Below are positions 22,675 through 64,000 of a DNA stretch of 64,000 bases, piece by piece. How positions within the stretch are numbered: the stretch's first letter is position 1; the number at the start of each line of letters is the position of its first letter. Source of the stretch: Tetradesmus obliquus (taxonomy: Eukaryota; Chlorophyta; Chlorophyceae; Sphaeropleales; Scenedesmaceae); assembly GCA_030272155.1 (NCBI GenBank), contig CP126192.1:2204501-2268500 (forward strand). The letters run 5' to 3'. The translations under genes were made by a program, and so were the position numbers. The notes under the pieces are model-generated. The model had not been told where the DNA came from. It made no database searches and worked only from the letters and a program-made list of their open reading frames with translations.

Positions 22675-25600
22675 TCACTGCGCCTTCCAGACCATCAGGT
22701 TCATGTTGCAGCCCACGCTGGTGTTGCCAGCCAGGCGCAGCCCCGCAGCGCTGAACAGCGCCTGCCATTCGCTCAGCGTGCGCCACGCGCCGCCAGGGCA
22801 CTGCGCCAGGATCTCAATGGCAAACAGGCCTGCACAGCAGCATACAGACGCGGTGTGTGACGGGCCGCTTGCAAACATGTGACGCTGCGTGTCAGCCAGC
22901 ACCGTAAGCTGCTTTCTACTCAACAGAGATGACACCTCAGTGTGTCAAGAAGGCGTTGTAGTTTTAGTTGTTTATGTATCGGTCAGCGAAGCTAGCCTAA
23001 TTTAAGAAACACTATCCTGATTTTAGCGCCCGTCGACCATCCAGCCGCAGCTGAACATGCGATTGGTGCATCACTATGGAAAGGTTATAGCACCTGGACA
23101 GCAGCCTCAGAAAAATTTGGCCAGCTGTACATGCATGCCATACTGCAGTCTCAGCTTCTGCACTCACCTGGGGCCACGCCATCCTCGCGGGTGTTGTGCT
23201 GCCTGTCGCCAGCCTCAGGCACCAGCGTCTGCAGCAGCAGGATGGAGCCGCCGGGCGCCAGCACCTCCCTGCAGGGCGGCAGCACGCCAGTACTCAGAGT
23301 CAGCAGCATTGGGAGCGTGTCGGGGCATGCCGCAGGTGCTTGAACTCGTGCAAATGATAAGGTTATATGACTCTTGTATTCTGGGGAACGTAGGGGTTTG
23401 TGTGTGGTGGCGAGGCATGGCGAGCCCCATGCATTGTACAGCTGCCAGCTGCCAACCTTGACAACGCGCAGTTCAATGTGAGTTGGTCAACTTGCTGCAT
23501 GCATGCGCTGCAAGGGCACGTGTGCAGCATGCAGGGTGCACAAGCCGGCGGCCCAGCGCAGCTGGCGCACATTTGGCAACTGTGACACCGCTGCTGTGCT
23601 GCACCGAGCACTTGCCTGCAGTGCTTCAGAATGAGGGCACAGTCCTCATCTGAGAAGGCTGACAGGAAGTGCTTCATCAGCAGCGCGTCAACCTGCGGCA
23701 GCAGCAGCAGCAGTATGACAAGAACGAAGGATACAGCATACAGTTGGCAACCAGATAGAGTACGCGCACTACTGGATAGCTTGGACGTGGCACAGCTGTG
23801 CTGCTAGCATTTCAAACGTGATTGCCAAGCTCTCAAGCAGATCTGCCTGTCAACAGCCACGCTGTGTGGCACATGCTGCCAACGTGCAACAGCAGCCGCC
23901 ACCATCACCGCACCACACTGCACCATACCACCCGCCACGCCCGCACCTGTGCCTGCTGCGCCTGTTGCGGGAAGGGCTGCCGCACGTCACCCGACATGAG
24001 CGTGAGCCGGCCCGCTGCACCCGCCACACCCTTCGCCTCAAACATGCCGGGAATGTCGATGCTGCAGCAGCAAGGCAGGCGAAAGCCGTGCGCAGCAGCA
24101 CCGCACGAGTCAGGCGTAGGCAAGCATGTGGAGCCGATGCACAGCCATTGGCACATCTGACCGGCTTCTGCAATGCACATCTAGCGCAGCTGGGCACCCC
24201 CTGGACACTGTATGTGTCTGATTTAGCAGCCAGCAAGCCCAGTGAGTGTTGCGCACCGCAGCTACTAGCCGCTAGCGGCGCTAGTAGCGCGGCCACATCA
24301 GGCTGCAACCAGTTGGGGCATGCCCTCAATACAACTATCAACATCCCACCTGTCGATGACCATCTGCCTGTCCAGCAGCAGCCCCTTGGCCTGCGGCCCT
24401 GCCCAGGACATGGCGGACGACAGCAGCTCGCCACGCCCGCCACCCACGTCCAGGATCACACGCGCACCAGCCCAGTCGTACGCATCCTGCAATGCACAGG
24501 CAAAAAGGGGGGCCGGCAATAAGGTGACTGCAAAATGACGAATGCTAGACAAAGCCAGGATCCCAAACGACGCTGTTAATGCACAGCTGCGTACCTTCAA
24601 GCAGTGCTGACTGTGCATTGCAGCATGCTGCAAGGCAGACGGCCTCTCTCTGCTGCTGCACATGCTGCACTCAGCACGGCATCCTATGTATGTTTTAGAG
24701 TTCTGCCGAGAACGCCTGAAGCAGCATAAGTACCAACTGCAGATCAGTTGAGAGCCACAGTAGTTGCCCTCCGGTGATGCAAATGTATTGTATATATGTG
24801 GTATTACAGTATGCTATTGGCTGCTGGGCGCGCCTGCGCAGCCGCAGCCGGCTCACCTTAAGGTTGGTGGCACCCCCTGCCAGGCTGTGGCGTGTGAAGA
24901 AGCTCATGGCCTTCATGAACTCCTCGCCATATGCGGCCTGCTCAGGCAGCTCCCCGTACTGCAGCAGGCGGGGCGGGCGTGAAGTGGGAAACAGTTGATC
25001 TATGTTGTTGTCTGCTGATGGTGGTGGCGTGGCAAGCAAGCAGGCAAGCTGCTGGAAACGGAGCAACTCAGCACGATACTTGGCAGTGCTGGTTGCAGTA
25101 GCGTTCTGCTGCTCGCCTGCAACAGATGCAGCTGCTGCAGTGATAGTAAACATAGCGCCAAATGTTGCCTGCGGCAGTGCCATGTGCTGTGTCTCTCACC
25201 TGGTACACGTCCATGCCATGGGCCAGCACAAACGCTGTCGTGCCCTGCTGCACAGCCTGGCGCCAGCAGCAGCAGCAGCAGCAGCAGCAAGCAAGCAGCG
25301 CCGTGAGAATTGACAATGCACTTGCAGCGCAGCAGCGCGGCCACACACAGCACCCAACAGGCACGCACAAGATCATGAGGCACAATGTGGTGCAAGGAAA
25401 CACAAGAGTTTCTGGCGCTGAGGGTATCGCGCTGCATGCCCACAGCAGGGCTTTAACGAAGCGCAAGAGCAGCACCAAGCCGAGGTGGTGCACACTGCAG
25501 CCAGCGGCTGGCCAGCCTGCTATGGCAGCAAGCCTGTGAATGCTTCCCAGCAAAAATATCACAGGCCAACGCGGCAAATGCAATGCATGGCAGCCAGGCA

Positions 25601-26479
25601 AAGCCAGGCCGGGAGGCTCACCTGGGGCAGCACCTTCCATGCATCCCACTTGGGTGGGTTGATGAGGTGGCTGGCCATGTGGCCCAGGCTGGGAGCTTCA
25701 CCCTGAACCAGCTGCACAGTGGCGGCGTTGGGTGTGAACTTCCTGCCGGGAAGTTCGTCCAGCATCTCGTGCTGCGCCAGCACGCGCAGCACCTTGTACA
25801 GGTGGCTGGTGGCGGTGGGGGAGGAGGCGCCGCACGCGGCAGCGATCTACGACGGCAGCAGAGACAACGCACCATAGAATCCACTATCTTTCAAAGATGT
25901 GAAAGGCCAACAGGGGTGGGAGACTGCAGCTCATGGCTAGCGCACTTGCAGGCACGCCAGCGTGGTTGCCGGCTCTCGGATGTGTTGCAGGCAGCCAGGA
26001 CCCACAACACCATGTGTGCGCATTGAAAGGCAACACAGCGCCAGGCAGCATCTACACTGGCTGACAACAGCAGCCTGCAGCATCCGGACCTCATGCCTGG
26101 GGCGCAATGTTTAGGCCTCTGCAAGCCAGACCCCCAGCCACTGCTTGCACAATACATCACCCTGGTAAGCTTGCAGGCCTTCGTGTCTGCTCGGTGCTCA
26201 ATGCTTGATTTTCAGCCTGCTGTACACACCAAAATGCACAGCCTGTAGGAAAGGGACTCACCTGCTCGATGCTCATGCCTGCGCTGTCATCGTCATCAGC
26301 AGCAGCAGCACGGCCGTTGGCAGCCCCCTTGGCTGCAGCAGGCTGCCCCGCTGGTGCATTGTCATGGCTGCTGCTGCTGGCGGCGTGGTCCACGAGTGCG
26401 TCTGCCACCTTGAGCTGCAGCATCACTCCCAGGCAGGCACTCAGCCAGTGGCCCTGGATGGCACCAAACACCTTGGCTG

Positions 26480-26517
<38 letters not shown>

Positions 26518-26825
26518 GCAGCCAGGGGAGCGCACAAGGCAGCTGTTGTTTGTGCATTGGTTGTGTATGATGTGAGCCGACAGCTTGTAGTGCGCTTCTT
26601 GGTGATGCCCTTGGCTTGGGAAGGTGCATTTGTCACATATGTCCAGTTTCAAGAGCCTGCAACAGCAACAGCCTGGGGACTAAGTGTCTTACCTGTGGCC
26701 TGCATTGAGGCATCCGAGGATTCCTTAGTGCCACTGGCATGACCTGACACAACATGGCCAACTGCTGCCTTGACAGCATTGCCGATGTTGCCAGGCTTCA
26801 AAGCCTGAGGAACCTTTACGTCCAT
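22675..26825 (-). CDS. COMT-type (Methyltransf_2) O-methyltransferase
   Basis: SAM-dependent small-molecule O-methyltransferase, 438 residues in ten phase-consistent exons: 26825-26693, 26476-26262, 25846-25622, 25256-25200, 24958-24857, 24486-24350, 24061-23947, 23692-23616, 23268-23168 and 22829-22675. The N-terminal dimerisation half has VFGAIQGHWLSACLGVMLQL, KVADALVDHA and ACGASSPTATSHLYKVLRVL. The SAM motif is ILDVGGGRGELL (residues 255-266), followed by MSGDVRQPFP and the end EVLAPGGSILLLQTLVPEAG. Where plant COMTs have the catalytic L-H-D-W, this protein has L-S-A-F (residues 338-341, within KHFLSAFSDEDC), so the usual His base is absent. Intron 8 uses a GC donor. No transit peptide is apparent. 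Its start codon lies 428 bases from that of the divergent methyltransferase-dehydrogenase fusion, suggesting co-regulation; the substrate is unknown. Confidence 0.88.
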
Positions 26826-27252
26826 TGCTTGCTTTGCTCTGTAGAGGGATTCTTACAGCAGTTCAGCAGTTGCCAGAGCAGTGCAGCACACCACGTTCCT
26901 CAATCTCAGCTATAAAACAGTCAATCACGTGCAGGCAATTCAACAAATCTGGAAGTGACTAGAATTTCAGGTAACACCCTATAAGATGTCACGCAACTGC
27001 CTGTGCGCGTGATCGTGTGGCTCCAAGTGCCTTGTGAGCTTCGCGGTGCGAGGTGTTGCGTCAGGGAATCTGTTATCTTGATCCACTGCACGCTATCCTG
27101 TGGCCAATAACACGGTACCACGTTATCCAATCATTCAATAGCGCTTTATCTGGGTTGCTGGTGAACCAGCCAGCAGTAGGTGCAACCTTGGAAACGCTCG
27201 TCGCCACAGCAGCAACTGCACCAGCTTTGTTCTGCCGACAACAGCAACAGAC
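26826..27252. promoter_or_regulatory. Divergent promoter region between COMT-type OMT and OMT-SDR fusion
   Basis: 427 bases separate two start codons facing outward. A TATAAAA on the plus strand at 26911-26917 could serve the fusion gene. No coding sequence is seen. A shared bidirectional promoter is an inference from spacing. Confidence 0.5.
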
Positions 27253-28746
27253 ATGAATGGCGGAACTCAAGCAGAAGGCATCCATGCTACGGGCCAGCCA
27301 GACACACCGATGGAGGTCCTGACTGCGCTGCTGACCAAGGCCCTGCAGCAGCAGACCCTGGAGCAGCAGCGGACATATGTGCAGCAGGCACTTGACATTG
27401 CTGCTGGCCTGGATGACTATTTGGACAAGATCAGCAGCCCACCGTCACAGGTAGGGCTTTTGACTCAATGGGGTGATGGCAATGCAGGTGCTTGCAGCGG
27501 TGCTCAGCCACACACTGCGGCAGCCGTGTGTGCCATCACCTCTGGTGCAACAGACAGGCTCAAAGCAGCTGCACCAGCAGGGTTATTCAATGCAACCACA
27601 AGCAGCAGCAGTGGGTTTGCATCTGTCAACATGTGTGCAATGCGGCTGTGAGTTTGCATGTTGTGCGCTGCTATATTGAAGACGCCACGTTCTTTGGCCT
27701 AAAAATGCACACCCCCACAGTGCTGTCACATGATGATGTGCCACACATTGTGCTGTGGGCAAGAATGCCAGAATGCACCTGCATGTTGTGCATGGCATCT
27801 GCCAGCTGCCGCACATTGTCTGCCCACAATTCCGCTCTGCCTGCTGTTTTGCCTGTCTCCTGCCCTCGCTGCGCTGCGCAGGTGGTGCGTGAGCTAGTGG
27901 CTGCCTCTGTGAGCCATGACTGGGCTGGGGCGCACGCTGCCGGCAAGACGCAGTTCCTCCAAAAAGCGGAGTGTTGCAGCGGCACGCTGGAGGGGCGGCT
28001 GCTGCGCTTCCTGGTGGCAGCCACAGGTGGGCAGGCCTGGTGCTGCTACTACTGCATAACTGGTAGCCATACCATTGCTGTGGTTGATCGAAAGCATGCT
28101 GATGGTGGAGTGGCTGCTGCGCTTCGTGCTGGCGGCCACAGGTGGGGGCGGCCTGGGCTGCTGTTGCTTCACTAATGGTATGCATCATTTATATCAGAAT
28201 GAAGGCGGTGTGGTCTGGGCATGCTGTGGATGGCATGCACAGCTTACTCTGGCTGGTGTGAGCTCACGAGCCACTGAGCTTGGTGCAAAGGCACCAGAAA
28301 AGCTGGATGTACAGCTGCATGAGTGACATGCCCTGCACTGAACTGAAGGTGCAAAATGCACCAAGTGATACATCACATACGTTGCTGCCCTGCCGTGCAT
28401 TGCTTGAATAGCAGTCGTGCTGGTATGCTCTAAGCTGCTGCTTGTTGTGCTGTACGCTGTCGATGCCCACAGGTGCCAAGCGTGTGCTTGAGATCGGCAT
28501 GTTCACTGGCACCAGCAGCCTCGCCATGGCAGAGGCACTGCCGGAGGATGGCCAGGTGAACAGCGTGCGCCAGCCGGTCTTGCCAACTGCAATGCTGAAC
28601 ATGAACTGTATGACGCCATGCATATGTGTATACTGCGAGTGCCAGGGTGTGGTGTTGCCAGATCCTTGGCCGGCACTCATGTCACAAGCTAGCAGCTGCA
28701 GCAGCCGTTCTCTATACGGCATATATCCTGACAATGGCTGCTGCTC

Positions 28747-28792
<46 letters not shown>

Positions 28793-29583
28793 AGCTGGTG
28801 GCGCTGGACATCGAGCCCTACATGGCCGAGTTTGCGGGCCCCTACTTTGCCGCCTCAGGCCTTGGCGGGCGCATTCGGCCCGTGATCGGGCCAGCACAGG
28901 ACAGCCTGGCACAGCTGGCGGCAGAGGGCGAGAGGTGCGGGAAGACTGATGCGTTCACCAGCTGATACAGAACCCACAGGGGGGTTGACTGCTGTTTGTG
29001 CAGGCTGTTTGCTTTGCGCATATGCCCAGTCATCCAATGCTGAAGTCGGCAAGTTCTGGCTCCTCTTTTGCGGCTGTAATCCATTTTCATTGGCCCTAGT
29101 ATATGATGCTGCTGGCATGCAGGCACGCACACACGCACTGCCGCTAACATGCCTCGTGCCTTCTGTCCTGCTGCAGCTTTGACCTCATCTTCCTGGATGC
29201 CAACAAGGACGGCTACTCAGCTTATTATGACGCCATCATGCAGCACAGCCTGCTGGCACACAACGGGCTGCTGGTGGTGGACAACAGCCTCATGAAGGTG
29301 AGCGGCAGCCAGACAGCTACCACACCTTGCTTCGTACCATATTCTTTGCTTCGTATCATGTACCTTGCTTCGTACCATATTCCTTGCTTCGTACATTGGT
29401 ACTGTCACATGGCACTGCACTTATATGTAGCTGGTTGTCTCCTGCATGCGTTTCTTGGTTGCATGGGAGGGGATGAAGCGGCACTGCGCCTCATACAAGC
29501 ATGTGCTGCTTGACTGGTGGCAGTTACGCTTTCAAGAGAAGGCGGTTACATGTGACCTTGTTACCAAACTGGGATGACATTGC

Positions 29584-29617
<34 letters not shown>

Positions 29618-32303
29618 GCTGCTGCCGCTGCCGCGCCGTCCGCCACTGCCAGGGCCGCACCTACGCCCCCGGCGGCGTGGCTGACGCGTCTGCTGACGCT
29701 GTGCGCGCCTTCAACCAGCAGCTGCTTGGCGATGAGCGTGTGGAGGTGGTGGCTCTGCCCTTCAGGGATGGTGTCAGCCTGGTGCGGCAGCGGTGAGTGC
29801 TGCTGTTGCCTTGAGGCCTGAATGGTGCTCTAAAAGTGCACAGTACATCCACGTGTCCTATGCTGCGGAACAGGCTGCATGGCGGCTGCTCTGTTGCAGC
29901 AGCAGCCACCGCAAAACCTTCATAGCGTGCCAAGCAGGCAGTACTAATGTAATAGTGGGAGCTCTAGGGGTGCCTAGCATGCATGCGTTGTTGGTGTAGG
30001 TTCATCCTGGCTGCAGTGCTTGCACCGCAGCACTGTGTTCTGTTGCTATGAGGACCACATACTTCAGCATGACTGTCTCAACATGCACACCCTCAATGCT
30101 GCGGATGCAGACATGTCCACCACTGCAGGTCGCCTACTTCTGCCAGCGCAACCACTTCTCCCATCCCTGCAGCAACCAACGGCCATGCGGCAGCAAATGG
30201 CAGGCCTGCCGCCAGCACAGACCTGGCGCCAGCAGCAGCACCTGCCGCTGACCCCGTGCTGTGTGGCTTCAGGGGCAACAGCCTGCTGCAGCGCTTCAAG
30301 CTGACAGGCAAGGCGGCACTGGTAACAGGTAAGAGGGCGGCGGTTGGCAGAGGCCACGAGCTGCAGCCCAAGCGACTGTAGGCTGCATTGCCTCGTTGTT
30401 GCACTGTGCAGAAGATCTATTGATGGTGTTGCTGCCCAAACCAGAACCTGTTGCATGTTTGAGATGGGGTCAAAACATGCTGCGCACTGCTTGCAGGTGC
30501 TGGCCAGGGCATCGGCCGCGCCTGGGCACATGCGCTGGGAGAGGCCGGCGCTGCAGTTGCTGTTGTTGACCTGGACCTTGCTAAAGCACAGGCTGTGGCT
30601 GGCGAGCTGCTGAGCAAGGGTGTGCGGGCGCTGGCGGTGCAGGCTGACGTGGCCAGCAAGAAGGACTGCCAGCGGTGAGGCGCCAGCACGCTTCCGGACA
30701 GCTAGTATGCGATGCAAAGCTGCCTAGGTTTCACACTGCAAGGTTTGCTCCCGTTGCCATTTGCGGACAGATGCCGGTGCACATCACTGGCCCAGCAGTG
30801 ACCCTGAGACACTGAGCTGCTGTGAGTTGCGTGCACATAACATTTAATTGCTGCACGTGGCATGGGCTCAGCTGGCCCAGCTGCAGGCAGGCAGGCAAAC
30901 TGCAGGCAAAATACACCACACTCAGGTGCAGGTACAGCTGCTGCTGGTGGCATTCATTTCATGGTTTGCTGCACGCCTGCAGGATGGTGGCTGCTGCTGT
31001 GGCTGGCTTGGGTCGGCTAGACATTGCGGTCAACAACGCAGGCATCAACCGCAACAGCGCGGCAGAGGACACCCCTGAGGGCGAGTGGGACATGACGTTT
31101 GCGGTCAACGCAAAGGGCGTGTTCCTCAGCTGCCAGGTGAGCCGGTGTAGTGGAATAGCAGCGCTTGGCTTGTAAAGTGCACAGCGCATTAGTAACCTTG
31201 CTTTCTACACACAGGGCATACCACTGAAATCAAGGCCACCTGCTGGCCCCTGGAAACCAGAAAAACACATACTGCTGTACAGTACAGACATTGTCATCCG
31301 TGTAACACCCTGTTGCACTGCTGCTGCTGCTGCTGCTGCTGCTGCCCTGCAGGCTGAGGCGTCCCACATGCTGGCTCAGGGCTACGGCAAGGTCATCAAC
31401 ACCGCCAGCATGGCCTCACTGCTGGTGCCACACCCGCAGAAGCAGGCAGCATACAACGCCTCCAAGGCAGCAGGTGCGGCATCGCTGCTGTGGGCCTGCC
31501 TCACAGCTAGGATGCAATGCGTGCGTGGCGCAAAAACTGTCTGAGAGCTGAAGCTGTCACTGGACTGCTACATGACATGGTGCTGGTGTCTGCTGCCGCC
31601 TGCCAGTGCACCTCAAGACCAGCTCGTTGGCTGGGCGGTGCACACCTGGCCAAGCAATGCTTGCAGGTGCGCAGATTTGCATTTTTATTCTAGACTGTCC
31701 ATCTTTACACCAATGGTGATGAAATGTAACTCCTGCTTCTGCTGCTGCTGCTGCTGTGGTATGACCTGCAGTGGTGAAGCTGACGCAGAGCCTTGCATGC
31801 GAGTGGGCGGACAGGGGGGTGCGCGTCAACTGCGTGTCGCCAGGCATCGTGAACACCGCGCTGATCCAGGTGCGGATGGCGCACAGCAGCTGGTGCCTCA
31901 GTGCATCTCACATTTGTTCCGAAGTTTGTGCTGAGTGGCTGCTGGTCACCTCGGCAGTGTGAAGTCATGTACAGATGCTGCATTGCTAGCAGTCTTGTCA
32001 CCCGAAAGTTTGTCACCACTGTGCATGGCCGACGGCGGTTGCAAGTATCCTCAGCAAAACTCTCGTACCTCCTGCAGACACCGCTGCTTATGTTGCTGCT
32101 TTTGTTGCTGCATTTTGCCTTTGCTCCTGCAGGAGTCGCCTGACCTGCAGCCGCTGGTCACCACCTGGCTGCAGCAGATCCCTGCAGGCAGGCTGGCTGA
32201 GGTGACCGACCTGCAGGCCGCGGTGGTGTACCTGGCAAGTGAGGCCAGTGACTACATGACCGGCCACAACCTGGTCATTGAGGGTGGGCAGAGCCTGTGG
32301 TGA
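27253..32303 (+). CDS. Bifunctional O-methyltransferase / short-chain dehydrogenase fusion (MT-Ox-like)
   Basis: Twelve exons in unbroken phase: 27253-27450, 27882-28026, 28473-28555, 28795-28934, 29177-29297, 29653-29792, 30129-30328, 30497-30674, 30983-31136, 31353-31473, 31772-31869 and 32133-32303 (582 residues). The first half is a metal-dependent CCoAOMT-type methyltransferase: [20 protein letters not shown] (from residue 118), [24 protein letters not shown] and VVDNS. A Pro/Ala-rich linker (about 276-330) leads to a classical [20 protein letters not shown], a Ser in NTASMAS, and the catalytic Tyr487/Lys491 in YNASK, ending [12 protein letters not shown]. The exon after the methyltransferase has an upstream in-frame stop and no Met before the Rossmann motif, so the SDR cannot start independently. 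Fish MT-Ox, which with NAD and SAM turns 2-epi-5-epi-valiolone into gadusol, has the same two-domain plan; homology is inferred. No targeting peptide is seen, so it is probably cytosolic. Confidence 0.88.
28750..28791. repeat. (CTG)14 tract abutting a 3' splice site
   Basis: Fourteen perfect CTG units are followed immediately by TAG and then the exon beginning at 28795. The repeat replaces a normal polypyrimidine tract in intron 3 of the fusion gene. Similar tracts precede the exons at 31353 and 31772. Confidence 0.9.
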
Positions 32304-32466
32304 CGGCAGGCGGCAGTCAGTGCTGGTTGTTTGGGTGGGAGAAGGAACTAGCAAGGGTAGTGACTACATGACATGATTGGCCACAACCTGGTCATTGATA
32401 GAGGGCAGAGCCTGTGGTGACGGCAGGCGGCATGGAGTTGGGTGGGAGAACCGTTGGGAAGGAACT
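32247..32466. repeat. Duplicated gene end (last codons, stop and 3' UTR) of the fusion gene
   Basis: The segment from AGTGACTACATGAC through the stop codon to GGAACTA (32247-32350) recurs at about 32358-32466 with small insertions and a deletion. The second copy still carries the HNLVI and GQSLW codons and the TGA but is not linked to an open frame. Confidence 0.9.
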
Positions 32467-34661: not shown

Positions 34662-37600
34662 TTAGCGTGCTGCCACGGCACCCTTCAAAGCCAGGCTGCT
34701 CTTCATCTTTGCCACAGCCTCAGCAGCTGCTACACAGCCGTGCTCAGCAGCATAGCCAGCCAGGCGTGTTGCCGCAGCCGCCATCTCTTGCTCGCTGATG
34801 TCGTCCACAAATACGGCAGCCCCGATGCCGTTCATGAGCGGCGTGCGCTGCAGGCCGTCACGCGTGCGGGTCATGTCCTCCAGGCCCTGCAGACAAAGAG
34901 GCGCAATGCACAACAAGCAGCAGACAACTCGGCATAACCAGATGTAAATTAATCGAGTACAATGCGCATGACAGTGCAATTATCAGGTACAATGGCGTGT
35001 CATTCATTGCATCACCCGCCCAGTGCCCTGGTGGCGAAAGCGGCGCATAACAGGCAATGGCAGTGTGCACTCCTACCATCTTCAGACCAACACATGATAG
35101 CCTGCCGCCAGCATGCCGCCCCACCTTCATGAACAGCTTCACGCTGCACGCCTCGTGCCACAGCGGCAGTCGCAGGCAGCGCAGCAGGCCCAGCACGCGC
35201 CCCCGCTGCTCATCACTCAGCAGCCCGCGGCCCCAGGCCAGCTCCGTGGTCAGAGCCATGTCAATGGCCACTGCCTCGCCGTGCAGCAGCATGGAGGGAG
35301 ACCTGCAGCGGCAGCACATGTGGCGGTGGCACATCAGTATCAAACAGCTGGCAAGTACCTGTGGCGACAGTGGTGCTGGTTGCCACAGCCTCGCCGTGCA
35401 GCAGCATGGAGGCGACATGCAGGCGGTCACACATCAATGATGCATTCACAATGCATTGTGCAGCTCCCAGATGCTGCTGGTGCCTGATCACAAGGGTTGG
35501 ACACCAGTATTGATGTGCACTGCGTGTCATGCAGCAGGCAAACAGCAGCAGCCCCAGCAGCAGCGCAGCGCAGCGCAGCGCAAGTGCAGAACACTGCACT
35601 CTTGCCCCCACGCACCGCAGCGCCGCCATCTCCAGCTCTGGGCTTATCGTGTGTCCGTAGTCCACCAGCCGCGCCAGGTGCGCCTCCCACAGGTTGTACT
35701 CCAGCTCCTCAAGCATGCCCTGGATGCTGCGGCGGATGGCGGCAGCGCCAGCGGGGCTCTGCAGGGACGAGAGGAAAGCAGCAGAAGCAGCAGTTGTTGG
35801 CACATGCTTCAAAACTGGCAGCGGCAGTTGACTGTGCACGATTCAGCTGCTGCCGCTGCTGAACATGATACATGAATAGCACAGCATAAGTCACGCCCAG
35901 CACCTGCAGATCATCATCTTCTCATGCAGAAAAACACCAACCCATGCAGCAATGCACTCCCCGCCCCAGCTCACCTGGAACTTGCTGGCCACCAGCTGCT
36001 CTGCATTGCCCTCCAGCAGCTCAAATAGCGGCGCGTCCTTGATGCAGGCCATCTTGAGCATTTCAGCCGCCCCGTTGCTGATGTGGCGCGCATCCAAGGT
36101 TGTCAGCAGCGACACGTCACACAGCACGCCCAGGGGTGGGCAGTAGGTGCCTAGCTTATTCTTCTTGTCGCCAAAGTTGACAGCTGTCTTGATGCCAACA
36201 GAGGCATCCACCACAGCCATCACAGTGGTGGGCACCTGCGGGGGAGGGGTGGGTACGAGGGAGGAACACAGGAAGCATGCAAGAGAGGGTGATGCAACAG
36301 CGGAGTAAGGCCATTTTGCAGGATGGTATGTCGTGCAACACCTGCGCACGTGCTGCCTCTAGCAAGCAGCTCTTTTGAAAACTGATGCAGCAGTGTCAAT
36401 TCCAAAGCATATTTAAGGCATATAAAATCTGTCACCGTCATTGCAGGTCGCACGTTCAGCAGCAGGTGCAGAAATGACTCCACGGCTGCGCGGTGCATTG
36501 CAGCAGGTGGTGTTTCTACGCGCACCGCCCCACCTTGATTATGGCTGTGTTGCGCCGGTACAGGTTGGCGGCCAGCCCCGCCACGTCCAGGCACACGCCG
36601 CCGCCAATGGCGATGATGGGGTCGGAGCGCCTGGGGAAGCAGGTGCAGCAGCAGATTCACAGTTGCAGCCGCCCTGTCGGTTCTCTTGTGAGAAGTATCC
36701 AAAAAGCATGACCTGCTGGACAAACCATGAGATGCCTGAAAGATGTGAAGCTTGTACATCAGTTCTGTGCACGCTGTGCTGCACAAGCGTGGCACAGCAC
36801 ACATCACAGCTGCGCAAATCCGCGCAAATCCAACTGTTCAACGCAGTGACAGGCACGGACTATTGTGTGCCCTCCCCGCCTCAGCCCTCTCCCCACCTGT
36901 TGATCTTGAAGCCCTCGATGGCCTCCGCAATCTGCTCCACCAGCCCAAAGTGCTTGTTCTCCTCGCAGGTGGGCAGCGGCAGCAGCTGCGCCTCCACGCC
37001 GTGGTGCGCAAAGTACTGCGGGGCATTAGCGGCGGCAGCAGCAGCAGAACTTGGTGCCCGAAGCAACAGTTGATACATTGTAGTATAGGCAAGCACACGA
37101 ATCTGCTTGCACTAGCACCACAGCTCCTGGGGCATTACAGTGGTTGATGCTTAATTGCTTCTGCTCTTCTACCCACCATATGCTGCTGTGGCATGCAGCA
37201 ACATGTCAACCCAGCCACTGGTGTACAGCAGCTGCTCACCGCCCTGATCTGTTGCCCGTAGATACGCCCCACATTAGAGTCGATAACCACCAGCCGCCGC
37301 AGCCCCGTGGTCACAGCAGGCTCAGGGCCCAGCGCAAAGGGGAAGGAGCCAGGCACCACACCGCGCAGCAGTGCCTGCGGGGGCGGGTACAGCAGTACAG
37401 CAACAGGTGGTGCATTGCTGAGTGTTCTGTGGCAGCGCCTGCGGCTGCTGATCAGTCCATGTTGCTGACTAACACAGGAGGCTCGCACACTACGTTGCTG
37501 GATTGGGGAGGCCGGTGAGGCTACTACTCTGTCGTAGCATTGCTGCAGGTTATGCTACGTGCGCTGCTGTGGCTGCAAAGTGCCGCACCTTGTTGTGTGG

Positions 37601-38044
37601 CTCAAAGATGCCCGACACCTCCTGCACCGTGTAGTGCACCGGCATCGTAGCAGACACGCTGAAGCAGCCCTGCAGCAGCAGCAGCAGCAGCAGCAGCAGG
37701 TTGAATGATAGGGTCAGCAGGTTGAATGATAGGGTCAGGCTGAGCACGAAGGCTGGTGCTGTGGCTTTGCTGAAACAGGCTGGTGGCATCTGTGCATTTG
37801 CATATGTATATGTGAACTTGTGGTTTCAAAAGTGCCGCGCCTAATTAGCAGTTGCAGTGCTCTATTAGTGTGGCCGAGCTGACCAAAGAGAGCCTCAATC
37901 AGCTGCTGACACAACAGTTGACTCTACCTCTTGTCTCTGCCACAGGAATATTCCAACTCTTGCCACACTCACCGTTGCCAGGCCTGAGGTGCCGCCCACA
38001 GTCAGGCCGTTCAGTCCTGGCCTGTTGTGCAGCGATGTGTCACC

Positions 38045-38081
<37 letters not shown>

Positions 38082-38527
38082 CTGCCATGGCCTGGCAGCG
38101 GCTGTGCTGGCGCGCTGCTGTGGTTGAAGTGGTGCTGCTGGTGTGTCAGCGGGTGCAGCAGCGCCGACAGGTCCTCTGTAGGCCCTGGCAGCGATGATAG
38201 CTCCTGAAAGCTGTCGGGAAAGGCCTCCATCAGCTGGGTGTTGGCTGCTGCTGCATCTGCCACAAATGCGGCATCTATGGCATCGGCCAAGCATGGCTCA
38301 GCCGCCCAGGGTGCAGGCTGGCAGGCAACTAGGCAGGGCCTTGCGTTGCACTGCTTCTTCAGGGTAGCTGCGTGCAGGGAGCTGTTTGTTGGATGGATTG
38401 ATGCCCCTTTGTTGAAGTTGGCAGCTGGGCTCTGCACTGCGCTGAAGCGTGCAGGCATGCTGCGGCTGCTGTGGCAGATCTTGCCAGCAGGCATGCCCGA
38501 AACCGGGGCTGCAGGTCGCAGATGCAT
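34662..38527 (-). CDS. Sedoheptulose-7-phosphate cyclase (EEVS/DDGS family, dehydroquinate synthase-like)
   Basis: NAD- and metal-dependent sugar-phosphate cyclase, expected to cyclise sedoheptulose 7-phosphate to 2-epi-5-epi-valiolone or desmethyl-4-deoxygadusol. Nine phase-consistent exons: 38527-37973, 37669-37589, 37374-37240, 37015-36897, 36630-36534, 36235-35975, 35758-35616, 35302-35125 and 34886-34662 (597 residues). Conserved blocks: RLVVIDSNVGRIYG, PIIAIGGGVCLDVAG, VPTTVMAVVDASVGIKTAVN, KNKLGTYCPP, RHISNGAAEMLKMACIKD, DYGHTISPELE, LLHGEAVAIDMA and RDGLQRTPLMNGIG. Probable metal ligands are Glu387, His452 and His471. The KNKLGTYCPP/HISNG pattern is that of the S7P cyclases rather than dehydroquinate synthase. 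The first 185 residues are an extension: Ser/Ala/Arg-rich start like a plastid transit peptide, then low complexity with poly-Ala. Plastid location would place it beside the Calvin-cycle S7P pool (inference). It is divergent from the ATP-grasp gene. Confidence 0.9.
35267..35438. repeat. Partial duplication of the cyclase exon 8 start in the preceding intron
   Basis: The stretch 35267-35337, containing the acceptor and first codons of exon 8 (SMLLHGEAVA), recurs in diverged form at about 35382-35438 within the intron. The copy still encodes SMLLHGEAVAT on the minus strand. Confidence 0.88.
37673..37699. repeat. (CAG)9 tract before cyclase exon 2
   Basis: On the sense minus strand this is (CTG)9 ending essentially at the 3' splice site of the exon that starts at 37669. 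A second CAG run at about 38047-38082 lies in exon 1 and codes poly-Ala. Confidence 0.85.
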
Positions 38528-39206
38528 TGCTGTAGATTGCGTTTTTTTTGTTGCGCGGAAGGCTTGGCTTGATCACGGAAAAGCCAGGTGCAGCAAGCGA
38601 TTCCAAGAGTTTGATCAGGGCCGTCCAGAGCAATACAGTGCAATTGCGACAAGACACGAAACAATTTCCGGCAAGCAGTAAGAAGTTAAGAACTGTCTAG
38701 TTATTGTGACCTACTGGTTTTGAGGTCAGAGGCGGTTTGGGTCGATTGCGAATCTCAGCGTGTGGCTGAGCACCTGTCCAACATTCGGCAGTTTGCCGAG
38801 GTGACGTATGTGCAGCCGTGTGGCTACGCCATTCGCAGGGAATCTTCAGCCACGCTTATGCTGAGCACATTGAATGCACGAAATAGGGTTGCTGATTACT
38901 GTTTCTGTGGATCGTACATTGTGCTGACTGCGAAGCAGTACTGCTTTGAGCGCCCAACGCAGCTATGGGAGCAAGCGATGCCTTCGGCACAAACAGTGCA
39001 TTGGCGCAAATATGCCCCTCTGCAGCACTTCCTGTGAGTGCAGCAACTTCTGTCACACAGAAACTTACTCTGTACTCGCCAGCAGCATGCTGACGTTTGC
39101 ACAGCACAACTTTGATCAAACACAATACATGTGGCAGCACTCAGCTCCATGGATGCATTGCAACAAAGCAATATCAGCAAGTATTGCTTTGTTACCGTAT
39201 GTATGC
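38528..39206. promoter_or_regulatory. Divergent promoter region between cyclase and ATP-grasp genes
   Basis: About 680 bases separate the cyclase start and the earliest supported ATP-grasp exon, genes facing outward. A stretch at about 38740-38801 ending in a GTGACG donor could be a 5' exon of the ATP-grasp gene, but no in-frame ATG was found for it. No other gene is visible. Confidence 0.45.
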
Positions 39207-40096
39207 ATGTGTGCGCTATTGCAGGAGGTTCAAGCAGCGGTGTCAGCAGATGCTGCCAACAAGCGTGTTGGTAAGCAGCTGCTGCAGCAGCTGCCTTGGT
39301 GGGAGAAGCTGCAGGCTAGGTTGAGAAGCTATGCCTTGCTGCTGGTGATATACACCACATTCTGGGTGAGTGTCTTCACTCCGTGTAGCGGGTTTGGCAG
39401 GCTGTGCAGTTGGAAAGGCAAATGCACTGGGCAAGAAGCTGTGCCCTGTGATGCGCAATGCAGCATGCATTCAAGCGGCAAACAAGCAGCCTGTCTGATG
39501 CGCAGCAGCGCAGCACTCACACCACCAACCCCACGCTCATGGCTGTACAGCTACAGGACGCATAGCCGATGCAGCCGGTTAGATCAGTGACAGCCCTCCA
39601 TTTTAAACATACATGGCATATGCCGCTGCTGCTGTGCCCTGCTTGCAGCCCACATTGGCTGCCACCCTGCTTCTGTCATGGTGGCTGCAACCAACCACAC
39701 TGCTAGTGCCAAAGCACAACAGCAGCAGCCGCAGCACAGGCCCCACGCGCACAGCAGCCATCAGCAATGGCACCAGCCAGCATAGCACAGCTCAGATGGG
39801 CAGCAGCAGCAAGCCTGGCACAGTGATGGTGACAGGTGAGCCGCATGCAATGCAGCAGCTGTTTTGCACGACCATTGCGGCAGAATGAAGCTACTGGACA
39901 GGATGGAAGTCTGCAGCAAGCATATACACACATGCTTCATAATCAGCTGTGCAATGTGCAGGTGGTGACAGAATGTGCGTCAAGGTGTAGCGCTACTCAA
40001 TGCAGGAGCTGTGATGCTTAGGATTGCCCGACAGCAACACAGCAGCTCTCCCAACATCCCGCAACTTACGACTAGATGTCAACGTGCTGTGCGCCC

Positions 40097-40134
<38 letters not shown>

Positions 40135-43100
40135 TGCCGCCGCGCTGTTCACTGCCAGGCGGTAAGATGACCAAGGCGCTGCACGTGTGCAGGCACCTGG
40201 CTGCTGCTGGCTGGCGCGTGGTGCTCGTCGAGACACACAAGTACTGGCACGTGGGGTCGCGTTTCAGCAGCAGCGTGGCATCGTTTCACACTGTGCCAGT
40301 GCCTGAGGACCACCCAGAGGCCTACGTGCAGGCACTGCTGGGTGAGCAGTGGTTGTATGTGTTTTGAGAGAGGTGGTTACGTGTGGGTCCTGGCACCATC
40401 TTGGATAGTATAAGCCACAACAGGTTGAACACAGGTCTGAGACCAGAGAAGGAGAGTGAGCACCATAAAACACACTGCACAGCCTTGAGCACCAAATCTC
40501 TCATGTTATATCCAGAGACGTCTTACTGCGGTGCGCAACAGCACCCCACCTCACCGGCAGCGTGCTCTAAGTGTTTTGCTTCCTGGAATACACATACCCT
40601 GTTTGCAGGAAACGCAGAATGGCTGCAGCAGTGATTGCAGTCTGCATGTTTGGGCACACACAAGCTGCCTTTGAAGCCAGTGCTAGCGCACCGCAGCCAC
40701 TGTCCAAGAATGCATGGGCATCATCCTGCTCGTTGCTGCCTCTGCTGCTGCCCTGCAGGCATTGCGGCGGCTGAGGGAGTGACCATGTTCATACCCGTGT
40801 CCTCACCCATAGCCAGCCTGTACGATGCCCTGGCAGGGGAGGCGCTGGCAGCGCAGGCACAGGCGCAGGGCCGGCAATGCAGGTGGGGCACAAGTGTGCC
40901 TGGGTAGCTGGCCCCACAGCAGAGTTGCCGAACTAGGAGTAATCCCCATCGTACTGCAGGTCATCCTACTTGAACTCATCCCTAGCGCACTGCCTGTCAT
41001 ATGTTTGCGTCAACACTAGAATGTTGCTGTAAAACCTGTCCTTTGCAGGTCCTGGAGCCTGCCTGCTGCCACCACAGCGCTGCTTGATCACAAGGGCAGC
41101 TTTTCAGCCCATGCTGCAGCACTGGAGCTGCTGGTGCCGCAGCACCATGTGGTGACCTCCCCGCAGCAGCTGCAGCAGCTCAACTCGGAAAAGGTGGGGA
41201 GGGCGTTTGCCTGCTTGTATGTACTTGAAGAGCTGGTCCTATCAGCTGTCCTGTTATGCTGGTTTGCGAACATAGTTGTAAACAGTTGCGAACATAGTTG
41301 TATTGCTGCTTGCTGCCTGCTCAAGCCACCACCGCTGCAGCCTAGCATGGGCTATTTTATTAATTGTTTGGTGACACGATGTGTGACTGAGCAAAATGGC
41401 ATCCAGCATCCTCCAAATGTTACAAAACTGGCCAACCAAACCAGCATCATGCATATGATACGTGTGCCACGTGTGATTGTCTGCTTTTTGCCGCTCTTGT
41501 TTTCCCAACCGCAGGCCCTGGGCGCGGGGCGGCGCTTTGTGCTGAAGAGCATCGCCTACGACTCTTTGCACAGAGCCGACCTGATGCTGCTGCCCTGCTC
41601 GGCAGCCAAACTGGCAGCATACCTGGCGCGGCCTGACATCAGCATCACACAGCAGTGCCCCTGGATCCTGCAGGAGTACATACAGGTGGGGGCTGCTGCT
41701 GCTGCTATTGCATGCTTTGCACTTGCTCATCAAGCAGCACTGCTGCAGCACTGGCAGTGCAGGCCGGCTTTGGCAGTGGCGCAGCTGCACTGCTATGTTG
41801 GGTTGATGCTGCTCACAGTAGCATCACGTGGATATCAGAAGCATGAAGAGAGGTGCAGCAGGCCCTCTACACGATCTGCTGACGTCTCCCCTGTGCTTGT
41901 TTTGGCTTGCTGCTGCTGCTGCTGCTGCTGCTGCTTCTGCGTTGCCTGCGTGCAGGGCCGCGAGTATTCCTGCTACAGCCTGGCACACCTAGGCCGCTTG
42001 GTGGCGCACGCCGACACAGCAGCTGCACTGTCCAACCTCAACTACAAGTATGAGGGTGAGCCTCAACCAGAAGCACAGTAGGACGTCCCTGTGCTTGCAC
42101 TGCAGACTGGCGATTGCATGTGTTTGTTCAAGTTGGTGTGGCTTTCAAAGCTGCCTTCGCATAGTGACATCCTGCAGCCCACAGCGCGCAAAACCTGGGA
42201 GGCTTCCAACACAGCAAGTCACCTTCCAGCAGTGCCAACACTGACATTGTGGGTGGGTTGGGCGTTTGTGCAGTTGTTTGTATTGCCAGCTAGACGCCTT
42301 GAACACATGCAGCACTGCACCTGTGATGCATGCTTTGAGTCACTCCCTTTGGCACCCACTCACCCGTGCAGGGCACCCGGCCATCCGCCAGTGGGTGGAG
42401 GCCTTCGTGCAGCGCACCAACGCATCCGGGCAGGTGAGCAGGCTCGGCGCAGGCGGAGCTGCACATGCAAACACAGGACCAGCCTGGCCTGCACCCACAC
42501 TGTGCTGGTTGTGCTGCTCCAGCAGCTGGCGCGACAACAGCAAGTCACAGCGTCCCTGAGCGGGTAGAGGGTGTGGAGCCCAGGGTTGCCGCCCCTGGCC
42601 ACACACACCCTTTTAGCCTTAACTTACCCAGGAGCTGCAGAGCTGCCTGGGTAGTCACTCAGTCACTCACTCACGTCCCTGCTGTGCTGTGCATTGCCTC
42701 AACACAAGCGGCGTCCTGCAGCTGAGTGTAAGTGCCATGCAGCAGCCTTCAAGGCTGGCAGGAGCAGCACCATGCCTGTGGCACAACTGCCACAGTCATG
42801 CTCTTGTATACTGCCCTTTTCTAAAGGGGCCAGTGGTTTTACCACGCGTTTGCGCTCTCACAGCAGCGAGTGTGTGGCTAGCAGCAACAACAACGGCTCC
42901 GCCTTGCTGTCTGCCTGCAGCTGTGCTTTGACTTCATTGAGTCGGCAAAGGATGGCCGGCTGTACTGCATCGAGTGCAACCCGCGCACCAGCAGCGTCAT
43001 CACTGAGTTCCATGACAGCAGCCAGCTGGCAGCAGGTGAGCAGCCACGGCTGCATGCAACAGCACAGTCCATGCAACAGCACAGTCCATGCAACAGCACA

Positions 43101-44431
43101 GTCCATGCAACAGCACAGTCCATGCAACAGCACAGTCCATGCAACAGCACAGTCCATGCAACAGCACAGTCCATGCAACAGCACAGTCCATGCAACAGCA
43201 CAGTCCATGCAACAGCACAGTCCATGCAACAGCACAGTCCATGCAACAGCACAGTCCATGCAACAGCACAGTCCAGAGTTCTGTTAGACAACCCTGCGCT
43301 GTGCAGAGTGCTTTGAGTTGAGGGCCTCAAGAACATCACCGACTGGCAGCCATAGCGGCTGGTAGCAGATGTGCTGCCTGATTTCAGCCAGATCATTCTG
43401 CAGCCAGGGATTGCTGCCACCAGCCTGCATGTGAGCGACGTGTGTCAATGGTTGAAGTTGTACAATTAGCACAGCAGCTAATCATATACGGTTCTAATCG
43501 TATACGGTTACAATTGTATACGGTTCTAATCAAAACAAATGTATCTGCTTCAGTGGCGTCGCCACACGCACGTGTGTTGCCTTGCCTGCCTTGCCCGCCT
43601 GCGCTCCGCTCAATGTGTGCCGCACTCCTTTTCTGTGCATGCGCAGCATTTGCCAGCCCTGCAGATGTGCACCAGACCATCAACCCGCTACCACACAGCT
43701 GCCCCATCTACTGGTGGTGGAACGAGGTGGCGCGCCTCGCAGCCAGCCCCTGTGAGTAAACAGCGTTTGAAACGTGCACAGGCTGACTTGTGTGCCTACC
43801 GCCTGTGACGAGGGGGCCTGCTGCCAACAGCCCCAGCACATCATGGCTGTCATGTGTTCCTCGATTTGTAACGCATGTGCAGGGTGGGTGCAGAAGTATT
43901 GTTACTGCATGGACAGACTGCCGGGTACACCACCGTGCAGATGCTAAGTGAGGCTGTGTCTGCTGCTGCACACCACTCCATCGCTGCTGCAGGGTGGTAT
44001 GCACCCACTTTCCTCTCGGTGATCGGCGCGGGCGTGGATGGTGTGTTCACACCTGCCGACCCATGGCCCTTCATCGCACTGCACTACCTGCAGGTACGCA
44101 GTGGTAGTTAGCAATGTTATATGTAACTGTCATATAACAGCTATGCATGCACACCGTGCTAGGGATGTACACATGACCGTCCACTGCAAGCCTCTTTCAG
44201 CTGGTGCTGACACCCATACACTAACAGTCAGCGACTAGCAACACTGCATCACCTGCTAGTAGAACACTCAGGTGCTGCTGGTTGATGTCGTCTACGCACC
44301 GCTGCCGACATGTTGCTGTGTTGATGGTTGCGCAGGTGCCGCCGCTGCTGGTGGGCAACATGCTGCGCGGCAACCCCTGGAAGAAGGTGGACCTGTGCAT
44401 TGGCAAGGTGGCGGAGCTCTACGGCGATTGA
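39207..44431 (+). CDS. MysC-like ATP-grasp ligase, membrane-anchored
   Basis: Twelve phase-consistent exons: 39207-39365, 39649-39835, 40159-40341, 40759-40882, 41049-41193, 41515-41685, 41956-42055, 42372-42433, 42921-43035, 43647-43751, 43993-44093 and 44336-44431 (515 residues). The core matches, as I recall that family, the ATP-grasp that makes mycosporine-glycine in cyanobacteria: ALHVCRHLAAAGWRVVLVET, KYWHVGSRFSSSVASFHTVP, FIPVSSPIASLYDALA, FVLKSIAYDSLHRADLMLLP, WILQEYIQGREYSCYS and QLCFDFIESAKDGRLYCIEC followed by NPRTSSVITEF (metal-binding Glu395 and Asn397 in ECNPR). Known MysC joins glycine to 4-deoxygadusol using ATP. Residues about 41-75 (SYALLLVIYTTFW, then TLAATLLLSWWLQPTTLLV) form a hydrophobic anchor not expected in bacterial MysC. 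The start is uncertain: an in-frame ATG at 39207 was chosen, but 39225 also looks like a splice acceptor. Confidence 0.85.
43053..43273. repeat. Tandem repeat, 13 perfect copies of a 17-bp unit
   Basis: Unit CATGCAACAGCACAGTC, repeated 13 times without spacers inside an intron of the ATP-grasp gene, 17 bases after the donor of the exon ending at 43035. Because 17 is not a multiple of three, all frames cycle and give spurious long open frames. Confidence 0.97.
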
Positions 44432-50400: not shown

Positions 50401-51533
50401 ACACAGGATGCTGCCACGTGCAGTACCACAACGACAATACCAGTATCTGTGCTGTAAACCGTGGCACTACTGGACAGCTGCCCCATGCTTGATCAGGCTC
50501 CACCTGCCAGCAGCGTCCGCCCGGCCTGCTCAGCTGTCCAGGAATCGGCACATCCGCAGACTTGCGCAAGTACTGTGCAACTTGTGCGCGGTGTGAACAC
50601 CAGCAGCAGGCTGGAAGAACAGGCCTCGCGCACCTTCTTCAGCTCTGGTGTGTTGTTGATGTAGCGCTCCCTGCACTGCTTGCCTGTGCGGCCAGTCATG
50701 CGGGACGCAATGCTGCTCCAGTTCCTGGTGCCGTACTGCGCCACCAGCGCCTCCAGGCTGGCCTGCTCAGCATCAGTCCACTGCTGCGGCTTGCCGCTGC
50801 CGCCGCTGCTGCTGTGCGGCCCTGCAGGGGAGTAATCGCTGTCATCCTCTTCTATCCCGCCAGGGTGCTGCACAGGGCTGCTGCGTGAGCTGCGCGGCAG
50901 CCGGGCAGCGGGCAAAGCGCCTGAGCCTTCGTCTGTAAAGCCGGTGTCAAGGCCAGCTGCTTGTGCAAAGCCTGCGCGAGACAGCGCCGCCTGCAGCACT
51001 GCGTTGCTGCTGTGGTCGGCTGCTGCAGCAGCCTGCACTGCTGCAACGTCTTCTGCAGGTTGCCTTGCGCGCTGAAGGTGCTGCTGCTGCTGCTGCTGCT
51101 GGAGCCCTGCAGGCTGTCCTGCAAGCGGAGCAGGTTGCGGCTGGGCTGTGCCTTGCAGTAAAAGCAGCTGCTGCAGCAGAGCAGCAGCTATGTGAGATGA
51201 AAGACTGCCGTCTGCATGTTCCTGCAGTGGCGGGGGCTGCGGAGCTGCATCCAGCTGCTGGTGTGCTTGCTGCCAATGCTGGGGCAGCGCCGCTGCAGGG
51301 GCTTCACGTGCTGGTGCATTGGCTGCCATGAGCTGTGTTGCCAGGGCCTGGCTGAAAGCAGACACTGAAGCATTGATGTGCTGAGCAAGGACGCGCCCTC
51401 TTCCTGGGGCCGCCCCAGCGGCTGCCGCAGGCGCATCTAAGGAGGCAGCCACCTCTGCCAGGTGCAGCAAGCCATCAGGGCCCTGCGAGACGTTGTGCTG
51501 GTGACTGCCTTGGTCGTGTTGACTGAAAGTCAT
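47449..51533 (-). CDS. R2R3-MYB transcription factor with long Gln/Ala-rich C-terminus
   Basis: DNA-binding regulator. Exon 1 is 51533-50634 (300 residues), exon 2 starts at 50336. The first MYB repeat is WTDAEQASLEALVAQYGTRN with WSSIASRMTGRTGKQCRERY; the second is NWTPQEDLLLAQLHSQLGNK with WTAIARQMPGRSDNCVKNRW. The intron falls exactly between the repeats. Flanking regions are Gln/Ala-rich and likely activation domains. In exon 2 the frame closes with TAG at 48896-48894 (780 residues in all). A second long frame, offset by one base, continues to 47449 with ordered-looking segments (RLLAARQDRQRALEQYLALH; SAVLPEEALSAAVAAAKRVL). Either there is an unrecognised intron, a sequence error or true frameshift near 48900-49000, or the gene ends at 48894. 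The target genes are unknown. Confidence 0.75.

Positions 51534-58225: not shown

Positions 58226-64000
<5,775 letters not shown>

Follow-up and report, generated by a model that had tools for sequence, protein, structure and literature searches.

A four-gene cluster in the green alga Tetradesmus obliquus that probably makes a gadusol-core sunscreen, with a proposed N-methylation step

Organization of the locus

We analyzed a 64,000-nucleotide stretch of the green alga Tetradesmus obliquus (contig CP126192.1, positions 2,204,501 to 2,268,500; hereafter the window), part of a genome of 104.7 Mb in 17 contigs. Four neighboring genes in this window probably make an ultraviolet (UV) sunscreen by combining an animal-type route to the core with a bacterial-type attachment of an amino acid. 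They encode a methyltransferase of the PF00891 fold (OMT), a methyltransferase-oxidoreductase fusion (MT-Ox), a sedoheptulose-7-phosphate cyclase resembling 2-epi-5-epi-valiolone synthase (EEVS) and an ATP-grasp ligase resembling MysC. A preliminary description, made from the letters of the window, had set the outer limits of the cluster at 22675 and 44431 and had named these four genes; the limits proved right to the base, and the identities were borne out by Pfam for three genes and by homology and a modeled ATP-grasp fold for the ligase.

Each gene was modeled one exon at a time on the basis of splice sites and homology. Four uninterrupted, complete frames together occupy exactly 22675-44431 and form two head-to-head pairs, OMT with MT-Ox and cyclase with ligase, the MT-Ox and cyclase genes being convergent. 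The introns of all four genes are GT-AG, with the sole exception of a GC-AG intron after OMT exon 8, a junction confirmed by a protein of Scenedesmus sp. NREL 46B-D3 (P0242). The OMT model is 94% identical to T. obliquus OEZ85_010289 (P0241), the cyclase model is 98% identical to T. obliquus A0A383V683 (P0001) over 586 columns (the core region was given as 100%, though 2 differing residues are visible), and the ligase model is 99% identical to a metagenomic protein (P0121) over 463 residues, its N terminus being confirmed by another NREL 46B-D3 protein (P0122). For MT-Ox, the model draws on splice sites and Pfam and on the similarity of its methyltransferase domain to MysB. That the genes are degenerate or mis-assembled is barely conceivable: we found no point in support of it, and against it stand four complete frames, consensus splice sites and near-identical public proteins for three of the genes. 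In the public OMT model P0241, 15 residues of the GC-AG intron are retained as coding.

No second locus for any of the four genes was found among the best-scoring candidates in the genome. Paralogues of OMT and of the ligase were not found elsewhere in the genome, nor was a second MT-Ox fusion, the matches elsewhere being to separate methyltransferases and short-chain dehydrogenases. Besides the cluster cyclase, PF01761 matched the genome at a single further locus; it lies on contig C15 and is presumably the dehydroquinate synthase (DHQS) of the shikimate pathway. At this locus (C15:4114950-4116074) three matches in a row, confined to ~560 bases, align with one and the same profile segment, perhaps as repeated exons.

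The cyclase and the MT-Ox fusion

The EEVS-like gene (34662-38527, minus strand) has 9 exons (37973-38527, 37589-37669, 37240-37374, 36897-37015, 36534-36630, 35975-36235, 35616-35758, 35125-35302 and 34662-34886) and encodes 597 aa with the Pfam domains DHQ_synthase and DHQS_C, preceded by a 185-aa N-terminal extension that is possibly a plastid transit peptide. Among solved structures its best match was the EEVS ValA (4p53, E 1e-97), and not an unrelated sugar cyclase; desmethyl-4-deoxygadusol synthase (DDGS; 5tpr) followed at 9e-69 and DHQS at 1e-37. In the best 120 of 618 relatives, green algae came first (Chromochloris, Elliptochloris, Trebouxia, Myrmecia, Coccomyxa, Klebsormidium, Symbiochloris, Ulva, Cymbomonas and Apatococcus), then chytrid fungi and bacteria. 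A 33-row tree placed algae and chytrids in one clade (100/99) and DDGS in a separate one (100/100); the position of bacterial EEVS relative to the algal clade was not settled in this tree, in which the bootstrap had not converged. By both the structure-match ranking and the tree, the cyclase sits apart from DDGS and DHQS. The Apatococcus cyclase lies on a long branch and grouped with the chytrids.

In ValA numbering, we take the metal ligands to be Glu213, His284 and His300, and the sites that distinguish EEVS from DDGS to be Asp281 and His360 (Ala and Thr in DDGS), His360 presumably being one of 14 EEVS fingerprint residues. We compared 16 eukaryotic sequences (13 algal, including T. obliquus, and 3 chytrid) with ValA and 6 other bacterial relatives; P0036 is an incomplete protein in which the fingerprint columns are present. 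None of the 16 eukaryotic cyclases departs from ValA at the three metal ligands, and all have Asp at ValA-281, a site with Ala in DDGS. The His at ValA-360 was found in 0 of the 16 (8 Ala, 3 Gly, 2 Thr, 2 Gln, 1 Cys), T. obliquus having Thr, as in DDGS. Both Asp281 and His360 are present in ValA and in 6/6 of the other bacterial relatives, and animal EEVS are reported to share every one of the 14 fingerprint residues with ValA (PMC4426668). Since the strict EEVS fingerprint breaks at one site, we call the protein EEVS-like. Three chytrid proteins (P0032, P0033 and P0053) are EEVS-like cyclases within the green-algal clade and likewise lack the ValA-360 His.

The MT-Ox gene (27253-32303, plus strand) has 12 exons (27253-27450, 27882-28026, 28473-28555, 28795-28934, 29177-29297, 29653-29792, 30129-30328, 30497-30674, 30983-31136, 31353-31473, 31772-31869 and 32133-32303) and encodes 582 aa, with Methyltransf_3 at residues 99-275, an Ala/Pro-rich linker and an adh_short_C2 short-chain dehydrogenase at 337-579. 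An S-adenosylmethionine (SAM) methyltransferase is fused N-terminally to an NAD-dependent oxidoreductase, the MT-Ox architecture that makes gadusol in zebrafish (PMC4426668). The yeast strain that produces gadusol from the fish genes has no transaldolase. Grouping of MT-Ox with the vertebrate fusions has been reported for other green algae (PMC7826186). The methyltransferase domain is 37-45% identical to the gene in the MysB position in 75 of the 80 cyanobacterial MysC loci that we examined (the best 80 of 433).

In fish, EEVS and MT-Ox are enough for gadusol (PMC4426668), and gadusol itself might be the end product in T. obliquus, the ligase and the fourth gene serving something else. We consider this improbable, because a MysC-like ligase and OMT are part of the cluster in T. 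obliquus and also in other green algae (PMC7826186) and because the two go together in cyanobacteria, as described below.

The ATP-grasp ligase

The ligase gene (38965-44431, plus strand) has 13 exons (38965-39033, 39225-39365, 39649-39835, 40159-40341, 40759-40882, 41049-41193, 41515-41685, 41956-42055, 42372-42433, 42921-43035, 43647-43751, 43993-44093 and 44336-44431) and encodes a MysC-like protein of 532 aa with a hydrophobic N-terminal segment and a conserved ECNPR motif. Within the best 120 of 809 relatives, identity was 65% to Scenedesmus, 67% and 61% to two EukProt proteins and 58% to Chromochloris; it was 41-47% to other green algae and 39-44% to cyanobacterial or unnamed MysC-like proteins. 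The joining of an animal-type fusion to a cyanobacterial-type ligase, which had been read from the window beforehand, is upheld by the MT-Ox domain pair and by this homology to MysC.

A Pfam scan of the ligase gave no match at E 0.001, and the one cyanobacterial MysC that was scanned likewise gave none at E 1e-5; among the listed relatives some carry PF02655 and many carry none. The authors of a study on Asterarcys, another member of the Scenedesmaceae, took a missing ATP-grasp domain as a functional difference (PMC13208308). Because a cyanobacterial MysC also goes without a Pfam match, a gap in the libraries is more likely. Searches of the ligase against Protein Data Bank (PDB) sequences, singly and as a profile, returned chance matches only, and so we used a structure model. 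In the PDB, the model of P0121 (pLDDT 85.6, pTM 0.85) resembled biotin carboxylase, carbamoyl phosphate synthetase, PylC, PurK, the L-amino-acid ligase RizA and other ATP-grasp enzymes, with E values of about 1e-13 to 1e-12. By sequence the T. obliquus ligase is a MysC homologue, and this model predicts an ATP-grasp fold for it.

The fourth gene has an altered active site

OMT (22675-26825, minus strand), the proposed amino-acid N-methyltransferase, has 10 exons (26693-26825, 26262-26476, 25622-25846, 25200-25256, 24857-24958, 24350-24486, 23947-24061, 23616-23692, 23168-23268 and 22675-22829) and encodes 438 aa. Classical PF00891 enzymes use a catalytic His base with an acidic partner (His269 and Glu297 in COMT). 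The preliminary description had called OMT a COMT-type O-methyltransferase, and this held in part: the Pfam family is Methyltransf_2 (PF00891) and the glycine-rich SAM-binding motif DVGGG is kept, but the catalytic His and acid are replaced by Ser and Gln. A search returned 25 matches at E <= 0.001, 20 of them at E <= 2e-114 and green-algal where named, and 5 at 2e-19 or worse. Ser and Gln occupy the catalytic columns in 18/18 readable algal sequences, the other two of the 20 (P0243 and P0258) being incomplete or misaligned there, and in 14/14 cyanobacterial relatives of OMT (including that of locus L093). As controls, 4/4 aligned PDB relatives have His with Glu or Asp, and the five distant proteins have His and Glu (4) or Cys and Glu (1).

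OMT thus lacks the catalytic His/acid pair of a classical PF00891 O-methyltransferase, and ordinary O-methylation would be unlikely for a protein whose residues include no catalytic base. N-methylation of an amine need not use the His base of O-methyltransferases. Three points, the changed catalytic residues, the association with MysC in genomes and the N-methyl products already known, make us lean toward OMT being an N-methyltransferase that would act on the attached amino acid.

OMT and MysC in cyanobacteria

An OMT homologue was present in 8 of the 80 cyanobacterial MysC loci (E 1e-45 to 2e-63), directly downstream of mysC in five (L011, L012, L066, L070 and L079). Six of the eight also hold genes for a DDGS-type cyclase and MysB; L039 and L085 do not, within the stretch examined. 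The occurrence of OMT in such loci agrees with a report on these cyanobacterial proteins (PMC7826186), to which we add the counts. Genes for EamA, a TauD-type oxygenase and nonribosomal peptide synthetases (NRPS) accompany some OMT-bearing loci. In L066 and L070, glycoside-hydrolase-like genes (GH32/43/68) stand immediately after OMT and possibly serve sugar-bearing mycosporine-like amino acids (MAAs).

We also surveyed 386 cyanobacterial genomes drawn from the phylum, with a cut-off for OMT of E <= 1e-100. OMT was found in 8 and MysC in 41, and all 8 OMT genomes were among the 41, an overlap for which 0.85 genomes would be expected (hypergeometric 8e-9, kinship ignored). The center genome (G001) had been picked for having both genes; without it the figures were 7/7 against 40/385 (hypergeometric 8e-8, kinship again ignored). 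OMT lies within 0.4 kb of mysC in four of the eight genomes, at 6.1 kb in one and at 14.4 kb in another; the other two are taken up in the Discussion.

Sunscreen chemistry and the predicted product

The absorption of mycosporine-serine lies at about 310 nm. Mycosporine-glycine absorbs at 310 nm (PMC7118736), and gadusol-core MAAs of green algae, prasiolin and the klebsormidins, absorb at 324 nm (PMC4698291, PMC7118736). Prasiolin is gadusol-glutamate (333 Da; PMC4698291), klebsormidin B is gadusol-N-methylserine by nuclear magnetic resonance (NMR; 305 Da) and klebsormidin A is its hexoside, and Klebsormidium has a further unidentified 275-Da MAA at 322 nm (PMC7118736). Algasporine-glycine is an N-methyl gadusol conjugate of green algae, and some deoxygadusol-type MAAs have been annotated in K. 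subtile (PMC13312787). The structures of prasiolin and the klebsormidins each carry one O-methyl (PMC4698291, PMC7118736), which by analogy would be the one that MT-Ox supplies. The preliminary description looked for compounds at 296-310 nm; the search should not stop there, as about 324 nm is expected for gadusol-core conjugates.

These structures bear on a second reading of OMT, in which the route to a gadusol-amino acid is the same but OMT would be an additional O-methyltransferase, have some other SAM-linked role or stand outside the pathway. The protein is annotated Methyltransf_2 and termed an o-methyltransferase in PMC7826186, and prasiolin needs no second methylation. Against this reading are the Ser and Gln in every readable member of the clade, the single O-methyl of prasiolin and the klebsormidins, with MT-Ox to supply it, and the presence of MysC in 8/8 OMT-bearing cyanobacterial genomes. 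We regard this reading as unlikely, though it keeps some weight, and hold to the N-methyltransferase.

Asterarcys sp. SCSIO-46548 (Scenedesmaceae, 2026) has yielded an MAA of m/z 276.1069, which was collected as a 320-nm absorption peak, with 323 nm used for quantification, and was named mycosporine-serine from its fragments (PMC13208308). The calculated value for C11H17NO7, 276.1078, fits mycosporine-serine, gadusol-alanine and gadusol-N-methylglycine alike. The candidate genes of that study include an 'O-MT' (DN2842) and cyclase and ligase candidates (DN4455 and DN4456), with Methyltransf_3 and Adh_short among the domains in the figure legend; from its description there we read DN2842 as MT-Ox. 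The genes came from a transcriptome, with no cluster, and the authors' route runs through DDGS and NRPS to mycosporine-serine (PMC13208308). Because of the long-wave absorption and the Methyltransf_3 and Adh_short of the legend, a gadusol core is favored for this 275-Da compound in our reading.

The alternative for the T. obliquus cluster is a conventional mycosporine with a 4-deoxygadusol core, for example mycosporine-glycine or mycosporine-serine. Besides the assignment of mycosporine-serine, the Asterarcys authors called their cyclase DDGS (PMC13208308), and the Thr at ValA-360 in the T. obliquus cyclase is DDGS-like. However, that cyclase falls outside the DDGS clade and has Asp at ValA-281, the oxidoreductase domain of MT-Ox is not needed for 4-deoxygadusol synthesis, and the Asterarcys compound was measured at 320-323 nm against 310 nm for mycosporine-glycine. 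A conventional mycosporine is therefore quite improbable. The preliminary description had foreseen gadusol, mycosporine-glycine or a relative; a gadusol-core conjugate is to be expected from that list, but mycosporine-glycine is unlikely, because the cyclase lies outside the DDGS clade and because EEVS and MT-Ox make gadusol in fish.

We weighed coelastrins A and B, reported from Coelastrella, as possible products but did not retain them. The reported ions, 343.1 and 505.1, fit di- and trihexose (343.12 and 505.18) about as well, the proposed MAA mass of coelastrin A being 343.15 against the reported ion of 343.1; the ions show clusters of NH4, Na and K adducts, and the authors ask for NMR (PMC8704241). 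A term search of a paper on fungal mycosporines (PMC10057719) found no mention of green algae, gadusol or EEVS.

Neighboring features

The OMT/MT-Ox head-to-head gap (26826-27252) leaves 427 bp between the start codons, and the EEVS-like/ATP-grasp gap (38528-38964) leaves 437 bp; each is a candidate shared promoter. The two have one 10-mer in common and no longer word. The first contains one G-box, CACGTG, at 26926, which means little because the window holds 23 G-boxes. A 17-bp minisatellite (43053-43275, plus strand; 13.1 copies, 100% matches) lies in non-coding sequence within ATP-grasp intron 10 and looks recent. Cyclase exon 8 is partly duplicated: a stretch of it at least 22 bases long (35273-35294) recurs at 35388-35409 (minus strand), in the intron that immediately precedes the exon. 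The left flank of the cluster is RPS23 (PF00164), as first described. Within 20 kb to the right are two Myb-domain frames, perhaps one gene (48897-51650, minus strand), and an amino-oxidase-type FAD-domain frame (about 61440-62054, minus strand), presumably akin to phytoene desaturase.

Discussion

We propose, with a probability of roughly 0.6, that the cluster comprises the nuclear genes for a gadusol-core MAA and encodes the whole four-step route, including N-methylation. The EEVS-like cyclase would close sedoheptulose 7-phosphate to 2-epi-5-epi-valiolone, and the MT-Ox fusion would oxidize and O-methylate this to gadusol. The MysC-like ligase would then activate gadusol with ATP and join one amino acid, probably glycine or serine, to give an oxo-type MAA absorbing at ~324 nm. 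Lastly, the PF00891-fold methyltransferase would methylate the nitrogen of the attached amino acid and so give a product of the algasporine-glycine or klebsormidin-B type, for glycine C11H17NO7 of 275 Da. The first three steps are proposed because they have characterized homologues; each catalytic step in T. obliquus, the identity of the amino acid and above all the fourth step are predicted by analogy.

That the product is a gadusol-core amino-acid conjugate is highly probable. The genome has no match to the NRPS condensation domain PF00668 and a single match to PF07478, on a different contig from the cluster and weak (42 positions, 24.6 bits at a cut-off of 24, E 9e-4). This fits a product with one amino acid and agrees with the preliminary description, which had seen no enzyme for a second one.

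Several observations weigh against this proposal. The loss of a catalytic His could, we presume, serve other chemistry, as in RdmB. The missing ValA-360 His makes the product of the cyclase less certain. The seed sequences of the cyanobacterial OMT profile were themselves linked to MysC, and in 2 of the 8 OMT genomes (G128 and G174, both with a related NRPS near OMT) OMT and MysC lie 2.4 Mb apart or on different contigs. For Apatococcus, the source genus of algasporine, and for Ulva, Cymbomonas and Symbiochloris, the matches listed (cyclase, best 120 of 618; ligase, best 120 of 809) include an EEVS-like protein but neither OMT nor the ATP-grasp ligase, and Trebouxia and Myrmecia have OMT and no ligase among the matches listed (best 120 of 809). 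Finally, prasiolin has no N-methyl (PMC4698291), and N-methylation is therefore not universal.

The same four genes side by side in other green algae, a prospect raised before this analysis, had already been published: Foflonker & Blaby-Haas 2020 reported them adjacent in Klebsormidium nitens, Chromochloris zofingiensis and Coccomyxa subellipsoidea, and the same paper describes the neighborhood as part animal-like and part cyanobacterial-like and proposes a gadusol core (PMC7826186). Adjacent EEVS and MT-Ox genes in Coccomyxa had been noted by Osborn 2015 (PMC4426668). The T. obliquus locus matches the published green-algal neighborhood, with EEVS, MT-Ox, a MysC-like ATP-grasp ligase and an O-methyltransferase-family gene adjacent; Tetradesmus and Scenedesmus have 0 occurrences in the main text of that paper, and its relevant passages mention neither the residue change in the fourth enzyme nor the incomplete EEVS fingerprint, which are additions here (PMC7826186). 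From the records of other genomes we infer a shared contig for EEVS, ligase and OMT in Klebsormidium and for ligase and OMT in Scenedesmus sp. NREL 46B-D3, and adjacent gene numbers suggest that EEVS and ligase are also neighbors in Chromochloris. In Elliptochloris the EEVS, ligase and OMT genes are on different contigs, and in Coccomyxa viridis OMT is apart. In the literature, searched mostly without subscription papers, we found neither a report of this T. obliquus cluster nor enzyme work on the algal genes.

Compared with the vertebrate pathway (Osborn 2015), the cyclase and the fusion are alike, and the T. obliquus cluster adds the ligase and a second methyltransferase. With the cyanobacterial mysABC(D/E) clusters it shares the MysC-like ligase and a MysB-related methyltransferase domain, and some of those clusters have the PF00891 enzyme; it differs in that the methyltransferase is fused to a short-chain dehydrogenase and in having no DDGS/MysA-type cyclase, clear MysD or NRPS condensation domain. 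More tentatively, and with somewhat less than even confidence, we suggest that a new class of N-methyltransferase, marked by Ser and Gln, is represented by the PF00891 protein in the sunscreen clusters of green algae and some cyanobacteria, and that it makes the klebsormidins and algasporine-glycine; the 275-Da 'mycosporine-serine' of the Scenedesmaceae would then be gadusol-N-methylglycine from the cluster.

The T. obliquus cluster is a further case of a published type and not a new kind, to which a testable correction to the role of the fourth enzyme is added. It places the published green-algal MAA pathway in an alga that grows fast, is widely cultivated and has an assembly of 17 contigs. 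Should the proposal hold, the N-methyl group found in several sunscreens of green algae would have an enzyme assigned to it, the probable identity of a compound reported from this algal family would be corrected, and a compact set of four genes would be open to tests in yeast, a host in which gadusol is already made with the fish genes.

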